This document shows positions 11,761 through 64,000 of a stretch of DNA of 64,000 nucleotides, in pieces. The notes below the pieces were generated by a model. It did no database searches and had not been told where the DNA came from. It worked only from the letters and a program-made list of their open reading frames with translations. Source of the stretch: Nitrospirota bacterium (GTDB lineage Bacteria > Nitrospirota > Nitrospiria > Nitrospirales > Nitrospiraceae). Made by a program: the position numbers and the translations under genes. The stretch spans positions 186,001 through 250,000 of the forward strand of contig SCVN01000015.1 in NCBI GenBank assembly GCA_004296885.1. Reading direction: 5' to 3'. The first letter of the stretch is position 1; the number at the start of each line of letters is the position of its first letter.

Positions 11761-12999
11761 ATGCAAAGCATCCTCGCTATGGTCCTGGCCGGCGGCAAAG
11801 GGGAACGCCTCTTTCCATTGACCCAGCATCGCGCCAAACCGGCGGTGCCCTTCGGCGGCAAGTACCGGATCATCGACTTTACCCTCAGCAACTGCCTTAA
11901 TTCCGGCCTCCGGAAGATCGCGGTGCTGATCCAATACAAATCCCACTCCCTCGACCGCCACATCCGGACCGGCTGGAACATCCTGAATCCGGAGCTTGGA
12001 GAGTTCATCGCCTCGATCCCGCCCCAGCAGCGCATCAGCGAAGACTGGTACCGGGGCACCGCCGACGCCGTCTTCCAGAACCTCTTCCTGCTGGACAACG
12101 AGCAGCCGGCCTTCATCCTGATCCTGGCCGGCGACCATATCTACAAGATGGATTACTCGGAGATGTTCGACTTCCTGCAAGAGAAGCAGGCGGATGTGGT
12201 GGTGGGCGCCATCGAGATCCCCATGCAGGAGGCCGGCCGGTTCGGGGTCATCGGCGTCGACGAGCAATACCGAATCCAGCAGTTCGCGGAAAAACCCGAG
12301 CACCCTACGCCGATCCCGAACGACCCCGACCATGCCTTTGTCTCGATGGGGATCTACCTATTCCGAACCGACGCGCTGCGCGATCACTTGATGCGCGACG
12401 CCAAGGAGGACAGCCTTCACGACTTCGGCCGGAACATCATTCCCCGCATGATCCGGGAGAACCGGGTCTTCGCCTTCAAGTTCCAGGATGCGAACCGTAA
12501 AGCCGTCAAGTACTGGCGCGACATCGGGACGCTGGACGCCTACTGGGAAGCGAACATGGACCTGGTCGCCGTGGACCCCCTCTTCAATCTCTACGACCAG
12601 CACTGGCCGATCCGTACCTATCAAGGCCAGTTCCCGCCCGCTAAGTTCGTATTCGCCCAGGACTTCCAGGGGGGGCGGATGGGCGTGGCGCTCGATTCCA
12701 TTGTCTGCGGCGGTTGCATCATCTCCGGCGGCCGGGTGCAAAATTCCCTGCTCTCGCCCAACGTCATCGTCCAGGACCATGCGGATGTCCGGGAGTCCAT
12801 CGTGATGGAAAACGTGACGATCGGTGAACAGTGCCGCATCCGGCGCGCCATCATCGACAAAGACGTCGTGATCCCGCCCAAGACCGAGATCGGCTATGAC
12901 ATGGAGGCCGACCGGAGCCGCTTTACCGTGACCGAGTCCGGCCTAGTGGTTATTTCCAAGGGAATGAAATTGCATGCCTCCGTCAATCCATCCGGTTGA
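11761..12999 (+). CDS. glgC: glucose-1-phosphate adenylyltransferase
   Basis: About 412 residues. It catalyses ATP + glucose-1-phosphate to ADP-glucose, the committed step of bacterial glycogen synthesis. The N-terminus AMVLAGGKGERLFPLTQHRAKPA holds the nucleotide-binding and allosteric loop; here the first part LAGGKGERL and the second KPAVPFGGKYRIIDF are both intact. The central region has GTADAVFQN and AGDHIYKMDY, and the C-terminal third is a left-handed beta-helix. The ATG at 11761 is preferred over an upstream TTG because neither has a Shine-Dalgarno and the family begins here. The last 26 nt overlap the start of the downstream helicase fragment. The glgA gene is 10 kb away on the other strand. 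Confidence 0.95.
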   Translation: MQSILAMVLAGGKGERLFPLTQHRAKPAVPFGGKYRIIDFTLSNCLNSGLRKIAVLIQYKSHSLDRHIRTGWNILNPELGEFIASIPPQQRISEDWYRGTADAVFQNLFLLDNEQPAFILILAGDHIYKMDYSEMFDFLQEKQADVVVGAIEIPMQEAGRFGVIGVDEQYRIQQFAEKPEHPTPIPNDPDHAFVSMGIYLFRTDALRDHLMRDAKEDSLHDFGRNIIPRMIRENRVFAFKFQDANRKAVKYWRDIGTLDAYWEANMDLVAVDPLFNLYDQHWPIRTYQGQFPPAKFVFAQDFQGGRMGVALDSIVCGGCIISGGRVQNSLLSPNVIVQDHADVRESIVMENVTIGEQCRIRRAIIDKDVVIPPKTEIGYDMEADRSRFTVTESGLVVISKGMKLHASVNPSG

Positions 13000-14830
13000 C
13001 CTGATCAACGCCCTGCGCGCCAAGCACCTGACCCCGGCCATCGTCTTTCTGACTTCGCGCCGCGCCTGCGACGACGCGATGCAAGCCTTCGAGCGCAGCC
13101 AAGTCGAAATCCCGCCCGCGCGCCAGGACGCCATCGCGGCGGTGCTTGCGGAGCTGGTCGCGCAGTATCCGAGCATCGCCGAGCATCCCCTCCAATCCGT
13201 GGTGCAGCGCGTCGGCGTGGCCGCGCACCACGCGGGGCACCTGCCGTCCTGGAAAATCGCCATCGAAGAACTCATGCGGCAGGGTTGTTTAGACGCCGTC
13301 TTCGCCACCACCACCCTGGCGGCCGGCGTGGATTTCCCGGCCCGCACCGTGGTGATCACCCAATCCAGCGTGCGCAAGAGCCGGGACTTCACCGACCTGA
13401 CCATCAGCGAAGTGCAGCAACTCGCCGGCCGGGCCGGGCGGCGCGGGAAAGATCTGGTCGGCTTCGCCGTGCTCACCCCCTCCCCCTACATTGATTTGAG
13501 CGTGATCACCAAGGGCCTGACCGGCCAGCCGGAGGCGATCGACAGCCAGTTCGTCATCTCCTATCCGATGATCCTGAATTTGCTCAAAGCCCACCCGCTG
13601 GATCAGATCCAGGCCATCCTGGCCAAGAGCTTCGCCCAGTTTCAACTCAACCGCCGGGCGGAAATCTTGGAAAACAAGCTGGATGTCCTGCACGTCCAGA
13701 TGGAGCCCTATGGCCCGCGCGTCTGCACGGACTGGATCACGCAATGGCAGGTCTTCGACCATGCCCGGAAACAGAAAGCCAACCGCGTGCAGATCAAACG
13801 GCACGAGTCGCCCGAGCTGACCGCCAGGCTGCAATTCCTGACGCCCGGCCGGGTGGTCGGGGTGCCCAAAGCCCGCGGGATCATCCTGCGCCAGTACCGC
13901 AGCAAGGGCCAGAGACAGCCAATGCTCACGCTCCTGCGACCGGGCGGAGCCGTCACGGAATGTCCGGCCTCAACCGTCATCCAAGTGTTCGACAAGACCT
14001 TCGAGGTAGCCGAAGCCCCTGTGTATCCCTGGTGCACGCCGGGCTGCCTGGATGAGCTGACGCACCAGGCGGACGACCTGCCGGTGCGGATGCCAGTGCT
14101 GCCCATCCTCGTGCAGGAGAAACCGGAAGAAAGCCAGATCGTGCAGACATTGAACGACGAGTTCCCCTGCCCCACCTGCCCGTCGCGGCCCGCCTGCCAG
14201 AAGGACCATGCGGGGGCGCTCAAGCTCCGGCAGGAGGTGCACCGGAACCAAAAAATGATCCAGGCCCTGCACACGGGGCTCTGGCACCGCTTCCAGTCCC
14301 GCACCGAGGTCTTGCAACAGCTCGGCTACCTGACACCCACCTGCCAGCTGACCGAGATCGGCGAATGGGCCAGGCTGATCCGGATCGACCACTCTCTGCT
14401 GATCACCGAACTGATCCGCGCCGACGCCTTCAGCGGGATCGAGCCGCAGGTCCTCGCCGGTATCATGTCCAGCATCGCACACGACGACGACCGCCCCGGC
14501 GCCTTTCCTCGCATCAGTCCGGGGTTGGCCTCGCTCTTGGGGCAAGTGCGACACCTCGCCGAGTCGTTGGAGCCGCACGAAGCCCCCCCGCTCCTGCGCG
14601 CCGATATCGCGGCCGTCACGGAGCGGTGGATCGGCGATCCGACCTTGACCTGGATCGGCCTCTGCCGCCTGACCACCATGGCCGAAGGCGACATCTACCG
14701 ATTGCTGGCCAGAACCCTGGAATTTCTGTCACAGATCCATACGCTGCGGGGCACCCATCCTGGCCTCGCCGACTGTGCCAGCCGCGCGATCAAGGCCTTA
14801 CGGAGGGGCGTGCTTGAAGAGTTACCGTAA
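12974..14830 (+). CDS. Ski2-like helicase, RecA2 plus C-terminal half (separate gene)
   Basis: 618 residues that begin exactly at the RecA2 lobe of a Ski2/DEVH-type superfamily II helicase. Motif IV is at residues 22-33 (AIVFLTSRRACD), HHAG at 85-88, motif V at 111-122 (ATTTLAAGVDFP) and motif VI at 148-158 (QQLAGRAGRRG). The rest is a long accessory region with a Cys cluster (CPTCPSRPAC) and a helical C-terminus. Motifs I-III are absent from this gene but present in the next one (14887-15942). Normally both lobes are one polypeptide in the order RecA1-RecA2. The ATG lies inside the end of glgC. The two products may assemble into one ATPase, but that is inference. Confidence 0.85.
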   Translation: MPPSIHPVDLINALRAKHLTPAIVFLTSRRACDDAMQAFERSQVEIPPARQDAIAAVLAELVAQYPSIAEHPLQSVVQRVGVAAHHAGHLPSWKIAIEELMRQGCLDAVFATTTLAAGVDFPARTVVITQSSVRKSRDFTDLTISEVQQLAGRAGRRGKDLVGFAVLTPSPYIDLSVITKGLTGQPEAIDSQFVISYPMILNLLKAHPLDQIQAILAKSFAQFQLNRRAEILENKLDVLHVQMEPYGPRVCTDWITQWQVFDHARKQKANRVQIKRHESPELTARLQFLTPGRVVGVPKARGIILRQYRSKGQRQPMLTLLRPGGAVTECPASTVIQVFDKTFEVAEAPVYPWCTPGCLDELTHQADDLPVRMPVLPILVQEKPEESQIVQTLNDEFPCPTCPSRPACQKDHAGALKLRQEVHRNQKMIQALHTGLWHRFQSRTEVLQQLGYLTPTCQLTEIGEWARLIRIDHSLLITELIRADAFSGIEPQVLAGIMSSIAHDDDRPGAFPRISPGLASLLGQVRHLAESLEPHEAPPLLRADIAAVTERWIGDPTLTWIGLCRLTTMAEGDIYRLLARTLEFLSQIHTLRGTHPGLADCASRAIKALRRGVLEELP

Positions 14831-14886
14831 AACACGATGGATAAGGCATAACACATTAGATTTAAAGTGAAATAAATCTGAAATAT

Positions 14887-15942
14887 ATGACCACAGACGA
14901 ACTTGAAAAACTCCTCGAAGAACAGCCGGTCAGCCGTCTGCACCGGCTGGCTCGGGGGCGCATCCACCGGCACTTCCGTCTGGGCAAACGCCGGCTGATC
15001 GAAGCGTTGTTGCGGTGCACGCCGGAGAACCGGCCCGGGCTGGAATCCGACCTGCAAGCCCTCATGCAAGAGCCGCTGCCCGCGCCGCCCGTTGCCGCCA
15101 AGGAGCGGCGCCCGGCAGGCCCGCAGCCGGCCAGGTCCGGCAGCCTACGCAGCGCCCATCCGGCCCAGGCCGAACCGACCGAGCCGGCCACCGATCTCAC
15201 ATCGTTCCTGGAGGGCATCGGCGTCCCAGCGCCCCAACCCTTCGTGCCGGATGGCTGGCAGGAGGAGGCCGTGGCGCACCTGGCCACCGGAGACGTGATC
15301 GTCAGCGTGCCGACCGGCAGCGGCAAGACCTATGTCGCGCTGGAAGCCACCAGGAGGGCGATCGCGGCGGAGCGGACCGTGATCTATACGTCGCCCCTGA
15401 AGGCCCTGTCGAACACCAAGTTCACCGAATTCTCGCGGCTGTTCGGGCCGGACAAGGTCGGGATCCTGACCGGGGACCGGAAGGACAACGCGCAAGCCCC
15501 GCTCCTGATCATGACCACCGAAATCTTGCGGAACCTGCTCTACGACGCGGCGAGCGGCGAGATCGACGTGCGGTTGGACACCTTGGGACTGGTCATCATG
15601 GACGAGTCCCAATATATTTCCGATCCGGAACGCGGCGTGGTCTGGGAAGAGACGATCATCTTCTGCCCGGCCCAGGCGAAGCTGCTCCTGCTCTCCGCTT
15701 CCATCGGCAACCCGCAGGATGTGGCCGACTGGCTCACCAGCATCAGGCCCAGCCCCTGCCACCTGATCCGGCATAACCGCCGCACTGTGCCCTTGCGGGC
15801 CGGCTACCTCCACCCCAACGGCAAACTCTCGCCCCTCTTCCGGTCCGTCGGCATTCCTCACGGACAGGGAGGCGCCCTCCACCCGGAGGCCAAGCGGCTC
15901 TTTGCTCAGTATGAGGAAGAGACCATCAGGCCGCGCCGTTAG
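14887..15942 (+). CDS. Ski2-like helicase, RecA1 (ATP-binding) half (separate gene)
   Basis: 351 residues. A charged helical N-terminus (1-60) and a Pro-rich linker precede a RecA1 lobe: motif I VPTGSGKT (141-148), motif Ia YTSPLKALSNTK, motif Ib region with LTGD and TTEILRN, motif II DESQ (239-242) in place of the usual DEVH/DECH, and motif III SAS (270-272). The protein stops just after the lobe, where RecA2 would follow in a normal helicase; that lobe is encoded by the preceding gene. The ATG has no clear Shine-Dalgarno and follows a 56-bp AT-rich spacer. The protein alone could bind ATP but should not act as a complete helicase. Confidence 0.85.
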   Translation: MTTDELEKLLEEQPVSRLHRLARGRIHRHFRLGKRRLIEALLRCTPENRPGLESDLQALMQEPLPAPPVAAKERRPAGPQPARSGSLRSAHPAQAEPTEPATDLTSFLEGIGVPAPQPFVPDGWQEEAVAHLATGDVIVSVPTGSGKTYVALEATRRAIAAERTVIYTSPLKALSNTKFTEFSRLFGPDKVGILTGDRKDNAQAPLLIMTTEILRNLLYDAASGEIDVRLDTLGLVIMDESQYISDPERGVVWEETIIFCPAQAKLLLLSASIGNPQDVADWLTSIRPSPCHLIRHNRRTVPLRAGYLHPNGKLSPLFRSVGIPHGQGGALHPEAKRLFAQYEEETIRPRR

Positions 15943-16052
15943 CATCTCGAACAATACGCCCAGCTCCAGTCCGCAAGCTAGAAAGATGCATGCAGAAGAC
16001 CGGACTTATTGCTGCATTGCAAAGCCTGCCTCGAAACTTTCTTCGTCGACGC

Positions 16053-19000
16053 TCAGCGCCGGCCCTGGCCAAAAGCACCGATATAGGTCCCTCCCGTTCC
16101 CTTAGAAAGCAACGGCGAGCCGGGTCTCAGCCGGAAATCCCCCCGCATGTCGTCCACGAACAATGGATCGGCTGAGATGTTGGTGCCGGAAGGGGTGACG
16201 TCGAGGTAGTTGCCTTCGGGGTTGCCGTAGACATTGTTGTGTTCGATCCGGGTTTCGGACTTCCGCACGACGATGCCCTTGCTGTTGAAGGCCACGATGT
16301 TGTTGTAGAGCGTGACCTTGCTGCCCACCTCTCTGCCGGGTGAAAATGCATCGGTATAGACGCCGATGTAGACCCCGCTGCCGCTGTTGCCATATTTGCG
16401 CGACTCGGCGGAAGTATTCCGCACGATCGTATTGTTCTCCAGCGCCACCTCCGATCCGAGAATGTCCAGGCCAATGTCGTTGTCCTGAATCAGGTTATGT
16501 TCCAGCTTGACGTTCTGCGCGTTATTGATGCCAAGGCCCATCCCCCAGCCGGAGACCACACAGTTCTTGATCAAAACCGGCTTGTTGCCTCCTACCCGGA
16601 TGCCCTCGATCAACTCGCCCTTGTCCGTGCGCTTGGCATAGCCGAGGAAGTGGACGTTCTCCAGCGTCAGGTCCTCGTTGTAGGTAGAGAAGTCCCCTCC
16701 CCGTATCGTCATCCCGCTGATCTTGATCCGTCTGGGCTCCTTGCTGTCCCAGCCGAAGGTGATCGCCGGCCCCCGTGACGCGCGCATGCTCTTCGTGAAC
16801 TCGTCCTTGGGGGTCATGTCCACCAGGACCTTTCTCGGATCGGTCGAATTCCCCAGCAGCGTAACAGAAACCTCGATCGAGAAATCGGGTTCCACATAGG
16901 TGCCCGGCTCGATCTTCAAGGTGTCGCCGGCGAAGGCCTCCTTGAGCGCCTGCGCGATGGAGGTGTAGTCGCCGCTGCCGTCCGCCGCCACCAGGATCGT
17001 CCTGGGCCCGGATCCGGTGCGGCTGGCGGTGCGATCCTTCTTGCGCAGCTCTCCGAGGTAGTTCTTGCAGTCGTAATTGTCCGGCTCCACCTGGAGCGCC
17101 CTGGTGCAATCGGCGATGGCGGCCCGGAGATCCCCCTTCTTTTCTCGCATCTGGGCTCTTTTGAAATAGAGTCGGCCATATTTGGGTTGGAATTCGATGG
17201 CCTTGGTGTAGTCCTTGATGACCCCTTCCACCTCTCCCTGCTGCTCGCGCAGCTCCGCTCGTCGGATATAGGCCCAGGAATCGGAGGGATTGCGTTCGAT
17301 GGATTTGGTGTAGTCCTGCATCGCCCCGGCAAAATCTTTCATTTCGATCCTGAGAGCGCCTCGAATCTGATAGTAATCGGTCCCGGTCCCCTTGGGTTGC
17401 AGGGCGATGGCCTGGGAGTAGTCCTGCAGGGCTCCGTCTAGGTCCTTCAATTCCCTTTTGAACCCCGCCCGGAAGCCATAGACGTCAGGATTGTCGGGCA
17501 GCAATCGAACGGCCTGGTTCGCGTCTTCCAAGGCGCCCTGCAGATCCTGAAACTGATTTTTTCTGAAGTTCGCCCGTTTCTGGTAGTTCTCGGAGGTGGG
17601 GCTCATCCGGATGATCTCCGCATAGTCCTGAAGAGCGCCTCTCGGGTCCTTTAAGTACACCTTCACGTCGATCCGGTTGAAATAGAGATTGAGGTTCTTG
17701 GGGTCCGCGGCGATGGCGCGGTCGTAGTCCTGCAAGGCGCCCACATAGTCCTGACTGGACGATCGCGCGCCGGCGCGCCGCACATAGAGCTGCGAAAGGT
17801 CGGGCGCCATCTCCAGCAACCGGCTGTAGGTGGCCGCCACCTTCTGCGACCGCTGCGTGTAATCCTCCTTGCCGGTCAAGCCGAAATCCTCGATCGCCGA
17901 ATAGGTCCAGTAGTCGTCTGGATTCTTCCTGATCACCGCCAGGGCGTCCTTGAGGGCGCTGTCCATGTCACCCTGCCTGGCCCGAATGCCAGCCATCTTG
18001 AGCTGCAGGCTGGGGCTCGGCGACAGCTCATAGGCTTTGGAGTAGTCCTGCAGAGCCCCGTAGAGATCGCTGAGCTTGTTTTTCCGAAACTCGGCGCGCG
18101 TCTCGTAGTTGGACCCGTCGGACTGGACCTCGACGGCCTTGGAGTAGTCCTCCAGCGCCCCGTCCAAATCGTTGAGTTCGATCTTGAGCTCCGCCCGGTT
18201 GCGGTAATACCAGTCATAGCCCGGGTTCAGCTCGATGGCTCTGGTGGTGTCCTCGATCGCCCCTTTCAGATCCTTGAGCTCATATTTCTTAAAGGAGGCC
18301 CGATCCCAGTAGCCCGAGGCGGTCGCCACCATGCGGACATACTGTTCCATGTCCTGCAGGGCGCCGGGGATGTCTTGCGCCTTGACCTTGAGCTTGGCCC
18401 GAAACGTCAACAGACCGGCGTCCCGTGGATAGGCCTGCATGACTTTGGTGGCGTCGTCCAGCGCACCCTCGAAATTCTTGAACACGTCGGCCTTGAAGGT
18501 GGCCAGGTTCTTGTAGTTGTCTACGGACGGGTTGAGCTGGACCGCCTTGTCGTAATCCTTAAGCGCGCCCTCGTTGTCCTTAAGACTGGCGCGCCAGCCG
18601 GCGCGCAGCCTGTAGGCGTCGTCCTGATTCGGCGCCAGCTCGATGGCTTTCGTCGCGTCCTCGACCGCGCCGGCCACGTCGCCGATTTGATAGCCGCTCC
18701 GAAACGTGGCCCGGCTGAGGTAGCTGGCGGCGACGGGCTGGACCTTGATGAGCTGGGCGTACTCCTTCAAGGCCCCTTCCTTGTCCTGCAGGGCCAGACG
18801 AAGGTCGGCGCGGGCTTCATAATGGCTCGGGTCGTTCGGAGCCAGTTGCATCGCCTGGGTCACGTCAGCCAGGGCGGCCTGCGGGTCATTCAAGGAGTAG
18901 CGAGAAAAGTAGGCGCGCTTCCGGTAGTTCTCGGGGGTGGGGTGCCTCCGGATGATCTCGTCATAGTCCTGCTTGGCGCCTTCCGTATCTTTCAGCTTGA

Positions 19001-20555
19001 GCCTGATCTCCGCCCGATAGGTGTAGCCCTCGTCCTCTGCCGGCGCAATGTCCACCGCCTTGGTCGCATCGGCCAGGGCGCCGTTCAGATCGTTCAGCTT
19101 GTCTTTCTTGAATGAGGCCCGGCGGCGGTAGTTGGCCGGAGTCGGCTGGAGGCTGACGACTTTGCTTAGGTCCTGCAGCGCGCCGTCTCTATCGGCCAGA
19201 TCGGCCCGGAGATCGGCGCGGTAGCCGTAGTTATAGTCGTAGGTTGGCTCTAACTCGATGGCCTTGTTGACATCCTCCAGCGCCGCCTTGAGATGCTTCG
19301 TCGTGTAGCGCCGGAAGGAGGCGCGCGACATGTAATTTTCAGGCGAGGAATTGAGCTCAAGGGCCTTGGCATAATCCTGACTCATGCCCTCCGTATCGCG
19401 GGATTCCCTGAGCCCGGCCCGGTAGATGTACGCCTTGTCGTTTCGCGGAGACAGCTCAATGGACTTGTTGGCGTCATCCAGAGCTCCCTTGAGGTCATTC
19501 AAACTGTAGCGTCGGAAATACGACCGGTCATGATAGGCGTCGCTGCTTGGGTTCAGGCTGACCACCTTGGCCCAATCGTCCCCGGCGCCTTTGACGTCCC
19601 CGAGCGTGAACTTGAGCGAAGCCCGCTGCCGGTAGAGCCAGTCGCTCTGGGGGTCTGTCTTGACAGCGACGTCAACCAGCTCGAGCGCTTTCGTCCAGTC
19701 GCTCTTTGCTCTTGCCTTCGTGTCCGGTCCGGTGGTGTAGGACAACAGGTCCCCGCGCATCTTGAGCAGCCGCCATTCCTTCGGAGCGAGGGCAATGGCC
19801 TTGGTGTAGTCCTCGATCTGGGCCGGCCGTGGCTGCTGGGTTTGAGCACGGTAGGCGTAGAGCCAGGGATTGTCAGGGGCACGCCGGAGGAGGGCCGTGA
19901 ACTGCTCGAAGGCGGTGGAATTCGCCGGCTTGGTGTAAAGGAGCGTCCCATAGGCCGGCAGGCTTTGGGGCTCGATAAGGATCGCCTTGACGAGATCCTG
20001 CACCGCGCAGTCCCGGTCGCTGAGAGCGGTCCTGGCTTTGCCTCTGATCTCATAGGCCAGCGCATATTGAGGGGCACGTTCGATCGCTTGCGAAAGGTCG
20101 CGAACGGCCTCCGTATGTTGCTTGAAGACATAGAACCCGATGCCGCGGACCAGCCAGTCGTCGGCTGTGGCGGGCTGCAGCGTGAGGATCGGTTGCGCCT
20201 CCCGCCTGGCCCAGTCCGCCCGGCCAAGTTCAAACTGGCTCAACGCCCCCAAGGCCCGGGCCAGCGGCCAGTCGCCCTTCTGTCCAAGCGCCTTGGCGAA
20301 CTGATCGATCGCGCCCTGCAGATTATGCCGGTCCCGCTCGAGCTTGCCCTGAACGAAGGATTTCCAGGCCGGAGCCGATTCCCCCGCGCCGAGGAGACCC
20401 TGTTTTTCAACCTTGCCGCCGGTGGGTTGCGGACAGGAGCCGGACTGCTGGCCGTCTTTCTGCAACAGCTCGGCTGAGGACAGCAGTGGATTCGACAGCG
20501 GAAGCAGCACAACCAGGAGGCAGCAGGCAAGCCGGAGGATCAGCGTCATCATCAC
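16053..20555 (-). CDS. giant exported TPR protein with C-terminal parallel beta-helix domain
   Basis: 1500 residues. A signal peptide (LACCLLVVLLPLSNPLLSSA) precedes about 1,100 residues of tandem tetratricopeptide repeats. Many units come in pairs of about 70 residues: one unit with the pattern NY..RA.F, the next with the pattern GAL.D..KA..L.P. The last 340 residues change character. They start with AADGSGDYTSIAQALKEA, as in pectinesterase or DUF1565-type beta-helix proteins, and continue with short N-rich rungs (LENVHFLG, IKNCVVSGWG, LENNTIVRNT, LYNNIVAFN) typical of right-handed parallel beta-helices. TPRs bind proteins, and the beta-helix may bind a polysaccharide or be structural. It is co-directional with and 42 bp after the caspase-FGE gene; GAGGGTG provides the ribosome-binding site. 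The function is unknown. Confidence 0.9.
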   Translation of the reverse strand: MMMTLILRLACCLLVVLLPLSNPLLSSAELLQKDGQQSGSCPQPTGGKVEKQGLLGAGESAPAWKSFVQGKLERDRHNLQGAIDQFAKALGQKGDWPLARALGALSQFELGRADWARREAQPILTLQPATADDWLVRGIGFYVFKQHTEAVRDLSQAIERAPQYALAYEIRGKARTALSDRDCAVQDLVKAILIEPQSLPAYGTLLYTKPANSTAFEQFTALLRRAPDNPWLYAYRAQTQQPRPAQIEDYTKAIALAPKEWRLLKMRGDLLSYTTGPDTKARAKSDWTKALELVDVAVKTDPQSDWLYRQRASLKFTLGDVKGAGDDWAKVVSLNPSSDAYHDRSYFRRYSLNDLKGALDDANKSIELSPRNDKAYIYRAGLRESRDTEGMSQDYAKALELNSSPENYMSRASFRRYTTKHLKAALEDVNKAIELEPTYDYNYGYRADLRADLADRDGALQDLSKVVSLQPTPANYRRRASFKKDKLNDLNGALADATKAVDIAPAEDEGYTYRAEIRLKLKDTEGAKQDYDEIIRRHPTPENYRKRAYFSRYSLNDPQAALADVTQAMQLAPNDPSHYEARADLRLALQDKEGALKEYAQLIKVQPVAASYLSRATFRSGYQIGDVAGAVEDATKAIELAPNQDDAYRLRAGWRASLKDNEGALKDYDKAVQLNPSVDNYKNLATFKADVFKNFEGALDDATKVMQAYPRDAGLLTFRAKLKVKAQDIPGALQDMEQYVRMVATASGYWDRASFKKYELKDLKGAIEDTTRAIELNPGYDWYYRNRAELKIELNDLDGALEDYSKAVEVQSDGSNYETRAEFRKNKLSDLYGALQDYSKAYELSPSPSLQLKMAGIRARQGDMDSALKDALAVIRKNPDDYWTYSAIEDFGLTGKEDYTQRSQKVAATYSRLLEMAPDLSQLYVRRAGARSSSQDYVGALQDYDRAIAADPKNLNLYFNRIDVKVYLKDPRGALQDYAEIIRMSPTSENYQKRANFRKNQFQDLQGALEDANQAVRLLPDNPDVYGFRAGFKRELKDLDGALQDYSQAIALQPKGTGTDYYQIRGALRIEMKDFAGAMQDYTKSIERNPSDSWAYIRRAELREQQGEVEGVIKDYTKAIEFQPKYGRLYFKRAQMREKKGDLRAAIADCTRALQVEPDNYDCKNYLGELRKKDRTASRTGSGPRTILVAADGSGDYTSIAQALKEAFAGDTLKIEPGTYVEPDFSIEVSVTLLGNSTDPRKVLVDMTPKDEFTKSMRASRGPAITFGWDSKEPRRIKISGMTIRGGDFSTYNEDLTLENVHFLGYAKRTDKGELIEGIRVGGNKPVLIKNCVVSGWGMGLGINNAQNVKLEHNLIQDNDIGLDILGSEVALENNTIVRNTSAESRKYGNSGSGVYIGVYTDAFSPGREVGSKVTLYNNIVAFNSKGIVVRKSETRIEHNNVYGNPEGNYLDVTPSGTNISADPLFVDDMRGDFRLRPGSPLLSKGTGGTYIGAFGQGRR

Positions 20556-20597
20556 ACCCTCATTTCTTGGAGACTCCGGAGCAGAGCAGAAAAACGG

Positions 20598-22352
20598 TCA
20601 GCGCTCGGCGTCCTGCGCACAGCGGAAGCCGATAAAGCCGGTCCGCATGGTCGGCGCGTAGGACATCCGGCTCACGGTCAGGAGCGCCCGCGCCTGGAAA
20701 TCCCAGGAACCGCCGCGGATCACCTTCTCCTCTCCGCTAGCCGGCCCGGAAGGATTCTGGTTCGGCCCGTGTCGGTAGTAGTCCTCGTCGTACCAGTCGG
20801 CCACCCACTCCCAGACATTGCCAGCCATGTCATGGGCTCCGTAGGGACTCTTTCCCTCCTCATAGCTTCCAACCGCCTTCAGCCCAGCCGTGGATGAATA
20901 TCCGCTTTCAACCTGATAATTGGCCAGCCTGGGATCGGGCGGATCGTTGCCCCATGGATAGAGCCGTCCATCTGTCCCTCTGGCCGCCTTCTCCCATTCC
21001 GTTTCGGTGGCCAGCCGCTTGCCGGCCCATTGACAGTAGGCAAGCGCGTCGTCCCAGGTCACACCGGTGATCGGCTGGCCCGCTTGATAGGTATAGGAGT
21101 TGCCCCAGTTTTCCGGCTCTTTCCTCTTCGTCGCAGTGAGAAACTTGCCGTATCGCGCCACAGTGACTTCATACTTGTCTAGATAGAATGCATCGAGGGC
21201 GACGCGACGTGTGGCCGACCCGGAGGCCATCGTGAATTCGCCTGCCGGGACCAGGACCATGGGCGCGCCGTCTTTCCCGATGATCTCCTTGATCTGGTAA
21301 CGCGGTTGCTCATAGGGCCGCGCCCGGGCCACGTCCACGGACTTGGACGGCTGAGCCGGTTTCGCCTGTTCGGCCAGCTTCCGTTCCATCTCTTCCATCC
21401 GCTTCTTCATGGCGGCGACTTCGTCCGCAGGGAGGGCGGGTACACGTGTCGGCGCCTCGGCTATCGCCGGCGCCTTGGCCGACGGCGCAAAGAACACGAA
21501 TTCCCCCTTTTCCGACGAGAGCGCCCAGAGCTCCGGCCGTTGCTGGCCCTCGGACTCGGCCGGCACACGGCCATCGAGGTAGGCATACAACTCGGAAGCT
21601 GGGATCACGCCATCCTGATTCAGGTCCGCCAGACCATCCTTCAGACCCTTCAGGATAAAATAGGTGAATACGCTGTGCCCCCATTGCGGTCCCTCAACCA
21701 CCTGCTGGCCCGCTCCGCCCGCCGTGATGAGCTGCCGGCCTGGCTCTTTGGTGATTTGCTTCAGATAGGACTCCGTTTGCGGGGGCAGGCTACGAAACTG
21801 CTGACCGGCAATGCCGCCATAACAGACATCCACGAGAAAGAGCACGTGCTTCGACGGCAGAAGCGCTGCCAGGTTCCTGATTTCGGCCATATTGATGGCC
21901 GTGCCATGCAGCCGCTCACGATACGCATCCACCGGCAGCAGATAGCCCATGGGTTGGCCGCCGCTGATCGTCCGGGTTTCGCCATGTCCGGCATAAAAGA
22001 CCAAGAGCCGATCCTCCGGCTTCATCCGAGCGGGCAGCTCATCTCCCAGCACCGCGCGGATCCGCTCGCCGGTAGCCTGCTGGTTCAACAGCCGAATGAC
22101 GGTAAACCCTCGCCGTTCCAGCTCTTCGCCGATGGCCTGGGCGTCGGCCACGGCATAACGCAGTTTCGGAATGTTGTGCTGGTACTCGTTGATCCCGATA
22201 ACGACGGCCCAGGACTTGCCATAGTGGGTGCTGATGTATGCCGCCGGATCCTTGCCCTCGATCTTCACCCCGCGCGTCTCGGCGAGGGCTGGCGCAAAGC
22301 CAACCAGAACACATGTGGCGAAGAGCAGGCTGAAACTGATGAGGCGGCGCAT
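20598..22352 (-). CDS. exported caspase-like (peptidase C14) protein fused to an FGE-sulfatase-type domain
   Basis: 584 residues. Signal peptide at 1-24 (cleavage near ALA-ET). The caspase-like domain at about 45-290 has His123 in FYAGHGE and Cys177 in VDVCYGG, the catalytic dyad, plus an EF-hand-like loop (DLNQDGVIPASE, about 243-254). A charged helical linker (about 308-335) leads to an FGE-sulfatase/SUMF1-type fold (about 360-580: MVLVPAGEFTM, YEVTVARYGKF, WGKRLATETEWEKAAR-like segment, GNVWEWVADW, VIRGGSW, GFRCAQD). The paired catalytic Cys of true formylglycine-generating enzymes are not seen, so this domain is probably for binding. It is the first gene of the operon with the giant TPR protein. 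The protease substrate is unknown. Confidence 0.9.
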   Translation of the reverse strand: MRRLISFSLLFATCVLVGFAPALAETRGVKIEGKDPAAYISTHYGKSWAVVIGINEYQHNIPKLRYAVADAQAIGEELERRGFTVIRLLNQQATGERIRAVLGDELPARMKPEDRLLVFYAGHGETRTISGGQPMGYLLPVDAYRERLHGTAINMAEIRNLAALLPSKHVLFLVDVCYGGIAGQQFRSLPPQTESYLKQITKEPGRQLITAGGAGQQVVEGPQWGHSVFTYFILKGLKDGLADLNQDGVIPASELYAYLDGRVPAESEGQQRPELWALSSEKGEFVFFAPSAKAPAIAEAPTRVPALPADEVAAMKKRMEEMERKLAEQAKPAQPSKSVDVARARPYEQPRYQIKEIIGKDGAPMVLVPAGEFTMASGSATRRVALDAFYLDKYEVTVARYGKFLTATKRKEPENWGNSYTYQAGQPITGVTWDDALAYCQWAGKRLATETEWEKAARGTDGRLYPWGNDPPDPRLANYQVESGYSSTAGLKAVGSYEEGKSPYGAHDMAGNVWEWVADWYDEDYYRHGPNQNPSGPASGEEKVIRGGSWDFQARALLTVSRMSYAPTMRTGFIGFRCAQDAER

Positions 22353-22381
22353 GGGACACCTTTAGACAAGTGTATGCGGGC

Positions 22382-22410
22382 ATGCTAGGCCAAAACACGC
22401 AGCGGGTCAA
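22382..22410 (-). promoter_or_regulatory. sigma70-like promoter of the caspase-FGE/TPR operon
   Basis: TTGACC (-35, 5/6), a 17-nt spacer and TAGCAT (-10, 4/6) on the minus strand. The expected start is near 22375, about 22 nt before the ATG at 22352, leaving room for the AAAGGTG ribosome-binding site. It lies in the gap after glgA, so the operon is likely transcribed separately from glgA. Confidence 0.5.
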
Positions 22411-22495
22411 TACGCCGAGCGGCGTGCGCACTTGCGCCAGACGTCTGCCAATGCAAACAATCCGGCGCTTTCAGCGCGATCTATCGAAGCAATGG

Positions 22496-62764: not shown

Positions 62765-64000
62765 CTATCGCTTGGTTCGGTCGATCAGCTTCACCCCTTT
62801 GTTGATGATGTCCTGACTGCCGATCAGCTGCGGCGTCTGGTCGTTGTTATATTCCCGCCGCGCCACCCGCTCGACTTGCGGCTTCACATAGGCAAACAGC
62901 TCGCCCAACTCGATGACTCCGTCCTTATTTTGATCCGCCTCCCCTTGCAATCCCTTGAGAAAGAAGTAGGTCAGGAGCCCGTGACTCTTCTGAGCGTAGG
63001 TGCTGGACACTTGCTCTCCTGAGCTGGCGGCGAAGACCACGGTTTTGCCCCCGGCGACCAAGGAATTTTCGACCGACAGGACCATCGGCCTGGCCCCCTT
63101 GGCCAGCACGGATCGTCCGCCTGCTCCCGAAAAGCAGGAGTCCAAGAGAACGACCACTTCTTTGGCGGGAAGCTTGGCCAGGTTCTCATACAGCCGCTTG
63201 AGCGGATAGCCCGTGGTTTCGATATAGGCCGGGTCGCCGTCGAACGGCACCAAATAAGCGTCGCCGGTCTTGGGATTCGGCGCCCCGTGGCCAGAAAAAT
63301 AGACGAAGACCGAGTCGCCTTGGTCGACCCGATTCCCCAGCCATTTTTCGAAATACTTTTCCAAGTCGGTCCGGGTGGCACGGTCGTTCGACAGAAACGC
63401 CACGTTTTCTTCCGGATACCCCAGACTCTTCACCAGATAGTCCCGCATAATCCTGGCGTCATGGTCGGCAAACTCCGCCTTGGGGAGGCCCTGCCGATAT
63501 TGCTCGATGCCGACCACCACGGCGTAGGCGGGCCGCTTCCTGGGCGGACCGCCGGCCGGCGCCATATCCACGTCGCTGGACGGAACCGGCCGCGAGGTCG
63601 ATCCTGAGGCGACGTCCGGCCCACCCGATTCTCGTTTGACATAGGCGGCCACGCGCCCGTCGCTCTGCACATCGGCGACCACAGTTCGAACCATGTGGGG
63701 CATTTCCTTCTCAACCGCTTCCAGGATCGAATCCCCGACCGCATCCGTCATGCAGGGAGCCGTGATCGGACTCAATAGAAAGAACGTAAACGCTTGCAGG
63801 ATATTGCACGCATGAAACTGCCCACTGGACAGCCAATTGCCGGGCACGCGCTTGGTTTGCGATTCCTTGGCGAGGACGACTCCGCCGCGAAGGTCTTTCA
63901 GCGTGAGGTCCAATTTGGTTTCGAAGAGCGGTGTTGACGACATGCCGCCGCTCGCGATCACATCAACATTGACCGATGCCAGCAGGTCATGATCCTTCGC
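62765..64000 (-). CDS. caspase-like (peptidase C14) protein, 5' end beyond the window
   Basis: At least 411 residues; the frame stays open to the window edge and reads coherently (KDHDLLASVNVDVIAS...), so the true start lies outside. The first in-frame GTG is at 63961. The first 130 residues visible form an unrecognised domain. The caspase domain follows: FSGHGA with the catalytic His and LLDSCFSG with the catalytic Cys, plus an EF-hand-like loop DQNKDGVIELGE. A Pro-rich linker (PVPSSDVDMAPAGGPP) precedes it. It resembles the caspase part of the 20.6-22.4 kb gene but has no FGE domain in view. Confidence 0.88.
   Translation of the reverse strand, partial: AKDHDLLASVNVDVIASGGMSSTPLFETKLDLTLKDLRGGVVLAKESQTKRVPGNWLSSGQFHACNILQAFTFFLLSPITAPCMTDAVGDSILEAVEKEMPHMVRTVVADVQSDGRVAAYVKRESGGPDVASGSTSRPVPSSDVDMAPAGGPPRKRPAYAVVVGIEQYRQGLPKAEFADHDARIMRDYLVKSLGYPEENVAFLSNDRATRTDLEKYFEKWLGNRVDQGDSVFVYFSGHGAPNPKTGDAYLVPFDGDPAYIETTGYPLKRLYENLAKLPAKEVVVLLDSCFSGAGGRSVLAKGARPMVLSVENSLVAGGKTVVFAASSGEQVSSTYAQKSHGLLTYFFLKGLQGEADQNKDGVIELGELFAYVKPQVERVARREYNNDQTPQLIGSQDIINKGVKLIDRTKR

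Follow-up and report, generated by a model that had tools for sequence, protein, structure and literature searches.

The window analysed here, a stretch of 64,000 nucleotides from a 3.26-Mb genome, carries two genes on its reverse strand that are situated between a helicase gene and glgA. The first of them (20598..22352, minus strand) encodes a caspase-FGE protein (orthocaspase) of 584 residues, in which a predicted signal peptide (~1-25) is followed by a caspase domain (47-277), a linker and an FGE-type domain (364-579). The second gene (16053..20555, minus strand) follows after a gap of 42 bp (20556..20597, minus strand) and encodes a protein of 1500 residues that comprises a predicted signal peptide (~1-28), a TPR array (~67-1170) and a right-handed beta-helix domain (~1180-1495). 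It starts with GTG, with alternative ATG codons three and six bases later. A promoter-like element, TTGACC-17-TAGCAT, is located upstream of the caspase-FGE gene (22382..22410, minus strand). The gene calls agree with the initial annotation, which had been made from the sequence alone and had noted genes for two secreted proteins at this place. The Ski2-like helicase next to the pair (12974-15942, plus strand) is encoded by two separate genes whose order is permuted: Helicase_C and DSHCT reside on the first (12974-14830) and the DEAD domain on the second (14887-15942). Congeners (94-96% identity) and further genera of the family have the same order.

Both proteins are probably exported, as had been proposed initially. 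In a hydropathy scan, each of them features an N-terminal hydrophobic, signal-peptide-like stretch, MRRLISFSLLFATCVLVGFAPALA in the case of the caspase-FGE protein, and no strong transmembrane-like segment thereafter.

Domain composition of the two proteins

The N-terminal part of the caspase-FGE protein matches Peptidase_C14 in Pfam (residues 47-277, E 1e-17). The catalytic dyad is intact, as initially described, and consists of His123 in a YAGHG and Cys177 in a DVCYGG motif, both of which are retained in all seven Nitrospirales homologues that were aligned. In a Foldseek comparison with the PDB, the caspase part of the predicted model matches MALT1 and GSU0716. Pfam, alignment and fold match thus concur in a caspase-fold, p20-like domain with a His-Cys dyad, i.e. 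in an orthocaspase. An EF-hand-like loop, DLNQDGVIPASE (also given as ADLNQDGVIPASEL), is present in the caspase domain and in most of the seven homologues; judged by its sequence, it may bind calcium. At four loci in other Nitrospirales genomes the same exported caspase core is fused to PDZ or DUF4384 domains, an arrangement in keeping with a protease core whose regulatory modules can be exchanged.

The FGE-type domain was recognized correctly at the level of the fold. It is assigned to FGE-sulfatase (PF03781) by Pfam (residues 364-579, E 8e-53), a sequence search of the PDB yields true FGEs from human and Streptomyces as the closest solved structures, and the FGE part of the model matches FGE and PvdO in Foldseek, with low AlphaFold2 confidence over this half of the protein. 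Formylglycine-generating enzymes possess, in addition to the PF03781 fold, a catalytic copper-binding cysteine pair, and here the correspondence ends: the human sequence GGSYMCHRSYC aligns with GGSWDFQAR, so that both catalytic cysteines are absent. The FGE-type domains of the homologues likewise end with RGGSW followed by non-cysteine residues and are devoid of the catalytic cysteines in the alignment. Formylglycine chemistry is therefore unlikely, and an active formylglycine enzyme was ruled out on these grounds. Probably, the domain rather serves as a C-type-lectin-fold domain for binding and recognition or for regulation, and a role as a sensor is conceivable. We also considered it as a target of a diversity-generating retroelement; this was excluded because a search of the whole genome gave no match for a reverse transcriptase.

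The 1500-residue protein is indeed a very large repeat protein, as expected for the scaffold that the initial annotation had envisaged. Pfam TPR_1 matches with an E value of 1e-58, a simple TPR profile detects 26 units between residues ~80 and ~1160, and the sequence correlates best with itself at shifts of 34 and 68 residues, pointing at about 30 TPRs with a higher order of two repeats. This is the number given originally, and the beta-helix predicted together with the repeats was located at about 1180-1495. It has no sequence relatives in the PDB, and its AlphaFold2 model from a single sequence is poor (pLDDT 47, weak beta-helix matches) and was given no weight. Most Nitrospirales encode stand-alone beta-helix relatives of about 350 aa, whose genes as a rule adjoin coaE and have trxB close by; these gene names derive from our reading of the neighbouring translations. 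The exported right-handed beta-helix protein of Nitrospira (~350 aa) shares the domain with about 34-40% identity over about 310 residues but, unlike the 1500-residue protein, lacks a TPR array, resides at a different locus and is widely conserved. The fusion of TPR array and beta-helix, on the other hand, was detected in no further genome when 346 Nitrospirota were searched, nor in a search of the genus. Matches on plasmids are confined to the TPRs, and none of them spans 80% of the query.

The helicase-glgA site and the putative promoter

Three congeners contain the flanking genes with protein identities of 88-96%, and the gene pair is missing in all three. The helicase gene and glgA, which are oriented tail to tail, are 6553 bp apart in the window (15943..22495), as opposed to distances of -4, -4 and 138 bp in the congeners, where the negative values denote a 4-bp overlap of the two ORFs. 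In other genera, different small genes occupy the slot. The close packing of the two flanking genes in the congeners together with these other contents argues for an insertion here over a loss there, and on the basis of this sequence comparison we favour the view that the pair represents a lineage-specific, 6.5-kb accessory insertion between glgA and the helicase gene. The G+C content of the pair (0.61) equals that of the window (0.62) and thus provides no compositional sign of a recent transfer from a distant genome. At four loci in other genera, the slot harbors genes for a family of small putative lipoproteins of about 170-215 aa that share an LDNTxFMxLWxxYxxCxSSxDLDxMR-like sequence.

The promoter-like element (22410-22382) matches the sigma-70 consensus; about one such match is expected by chance, and taken alone it is no better than chance. 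Additional information comes from the block TATTGACC-N2-CTG-N-GTGTTTTGGCCTAGCATG, which encloses the element and occurs at only two places in this genome, here and upstream of a caspase-FGE paralogue on contig C7 (82788-84488). The paralogue shares 52% identity with the protein studied here, and the block is the same although identity drops to about 61% in the coding DNA. When 25 genomes were searched with up to three mismatches, the block was found at both paralogue sites and at one site in a congener (G001, contig C21; L224, 6844-7402) and nowhere else. There, it precedes a gene for a cut-short exported caspase of the same subfamily. The presence of the block in front of the paralogue and of the congener's caspase gene supports the notion of a real promoter that moves with the caspase gene. 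Behind the truncated gene lies an unrelated small ORF, and this locus may represent the remains of such a cassette after decay.

The initial annotation had assigned a shared promoter to the two genes. One likely promoter, with a block common to the paralogue, can be upheld; its use by the second gene would follow from the 42-bp gap, in which no terminator-like site was found (20556-20597). Co-transcription may be proposed from this spacing, and a short gap is weak evidence for an operon.

Caspase gene neighbourhoods and possible relations of the two proteins

None of seven other caspase-FGE genes from Nitrospirales has a TPR/beta-helix neighbour, while one adjoins an ordinary TPR gene that is transcribed in antisense direction. 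Full-length caspase-FGE relatives adjoin genes for a subtilase and a second caspase, a TPR gene, PPK2, a truD-like gene or nothing recognizable, and the paralogue with the common promoter block adjoins a truD-like gene and has no TPR partner. Among 80 caspase loci from named genomes, about ten, belonging to several phyla, encode the caspase-FGE fusion, and a beta-helix neighbour was found at none of the 80. Of about 17 caspase genes inspected in the genome of the window, one other, an ankyrin-caspase gene, overlaps with a gene for a TPR protein. There may thus be a loose association of TPR and caspase genes, though not with the TPR/beta-helix protein. The genome contains about 17 to 20 caspase genes, including three tandem caspases in a row, and over a dozen FGE-type genes, an observation that concerns the end of the window (62765-64000, minus strand) as well as the genome as a whole.

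Conservation of the pair in other genomes had been named as one way to check the original proposal, and separation of the genes in most relatives as one finding that would speak against it. The latter is what we observed: an empty site in all three congeners, caspase-FGE relatives in unrelated neighbourhoods and the TPR/beta-helix fusion in a single one of 346 Nitrospirota. The pair is not kept in relatives as would be expected for a conserved two-gene system. Since it occurs in one genome only, functional cooperation is without comparative support.

Which mode of action can be envisaged on this basis? Taking all observations together, we see an even chance for a ligand-controlled periplasmic or surface caspase that is combined, in a lineage-specific insertion, with a TPR/beta-helix binding scaffold. 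The Sec-exported orthocaspase would carry a C-terminal FGE-type domain that has lost FGE chemistry and functions in lectin-like recognition or regulation. Upon binding of a ligand or substrate by this putative sensor, the caspase, possibly in a calcium-dependent manner via its EF-hand-like loop, would cut a periplasmic or surface protein. The TPR solenoid capped by the beta-helix, likewise exported and probably co-transcribed, would act as a binding scaffold. The caspase/FGE part of this mechanism derives from the domain make-up and from conservation, the connection of the two proteins from their adjacency in one genome; the substrate is conjectural, and so is a joint action of the pair.

It is possible, with a likelihood of roughly one in three in our estimate, that two independent accessory genes share one insertion. 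One would be a caspase-FGE cassette that brings its promoter along and multiplies as a family of paralogues, the other a TPR/beta-helix gene unrelated to it. Such independence is indicated by the paralogue, which has the same promoter block yet a different neighbour, by relatives whose partners are a subtilase, PPK2 or nothing recognizable, and by the near absence of TPR genes next to the remaining caspase genes of the genome. The same-strand arrangement with a gap of 42 bp and a single likely promoter, and the occurrence of TPR genes beside caspase genes at two other places, speak against it.

A direct protease-substrate relationship, in which the TPR/beta-helix protein would be cut by the caspase at the cell surface, a reading that goes back to the initial annotation, appears highly unlikely. 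Both proteins are probably exported and are encoded next to each other, and the TPR protein contains many arginines and lysines, residues after which orthocaspases cut (PMC6426788); however, paralogues and homologues of the caspase occur without this putative substrate. We similarly attach little probability to the more far-reaching idea of a newly assembled exported protease-scaffold module in one Nitrospira lineage, in which a lectin-gated caspase would cut, or be recruited by, the TPR/beta-helix surface protein and which would mirror, outside the cytoplasm, the caspase conflict systems that act inside cells.

Exported caspases are numerous in Nitrospira and almost unstudied. Beyond the reading as ligand-controlled caspase and scaffold, the locus exemplifies one way by which such caspases may spread, that is as accessory cassettes that bring a promoter along and in which the sensor domain can be exchanged.

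Comparison with described caspase systems

The initial annotation regarded the locus as a candidate for a new system. This cannot be maintained, because caspase-FGE proteins have already been published (PMC3501461) and the pairing with a TPR/beta-helix protein was found in one genome only. The caspase-FGE architecture accounts for 33 out of 671 prokaryotic metacaspases in a survey from 2012 that also named Nitrospirae for their high metacaspase density (PMC3501461), and such proteins have furthermore been reported for cyanobacteria (PMC8283722) and in a survey of aquatic metagenomes (PMC4933709). With PF03781 placed behind a C14 domain on the same polypeptide, the protein studied here is an added example of this known design, located in a lineage-specific insertion. 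It resembles the FGE-sulfatase orthocaspases of Asplund-Samuelsson et al. (2012) in the order of Peptidase_C14 and FGE-sulfatase and in the His/Cys dyad and differs from them in its signal peptide, in close relatives that carry PDZ or DUF4384 where FGE is found here, and in the giant TPR/beta-helix neighbour. Contrary to the functional guess made in that survey, our observations suggest that a caspase-fused FGE-type domain is not necessarily a formylglycine enzyme.

The second point of reference are predicted bacterial conflict systems, in which FGS (PF03781) domains with a C-type lectin fold are coupled to caspases and domains of this fold type have been proposed to function in recognition (PMC8195603). 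An exported version of such a module, with the FGE-type domain sensing an invader and the caspase acting as effector, would be in accordance with the accessory, insertion-borne nature of the locus, but we consider it improbable: the described systems are intracellular and NTPase-regulated, whereas here a signal peptide is present and an NTPase is not, the genome has no reverse transcriptase and hence no diversity-generating retroelement, and PADLOC returns a generic caspase match only, so that assignment as a defence system was rejected. A death-like adaptor domain was not found in either protein, and the locus does not conform to the FGS/caspase type. It thus has in common with the FGS lectin-fold conflict systems PF03781 as a putative recognition module joined to a caspase and is distinguished from them by the lack of a STAND NTPase, a death-like adaptor domain and a retroelement, and by a probable location outside the cytoplasm.
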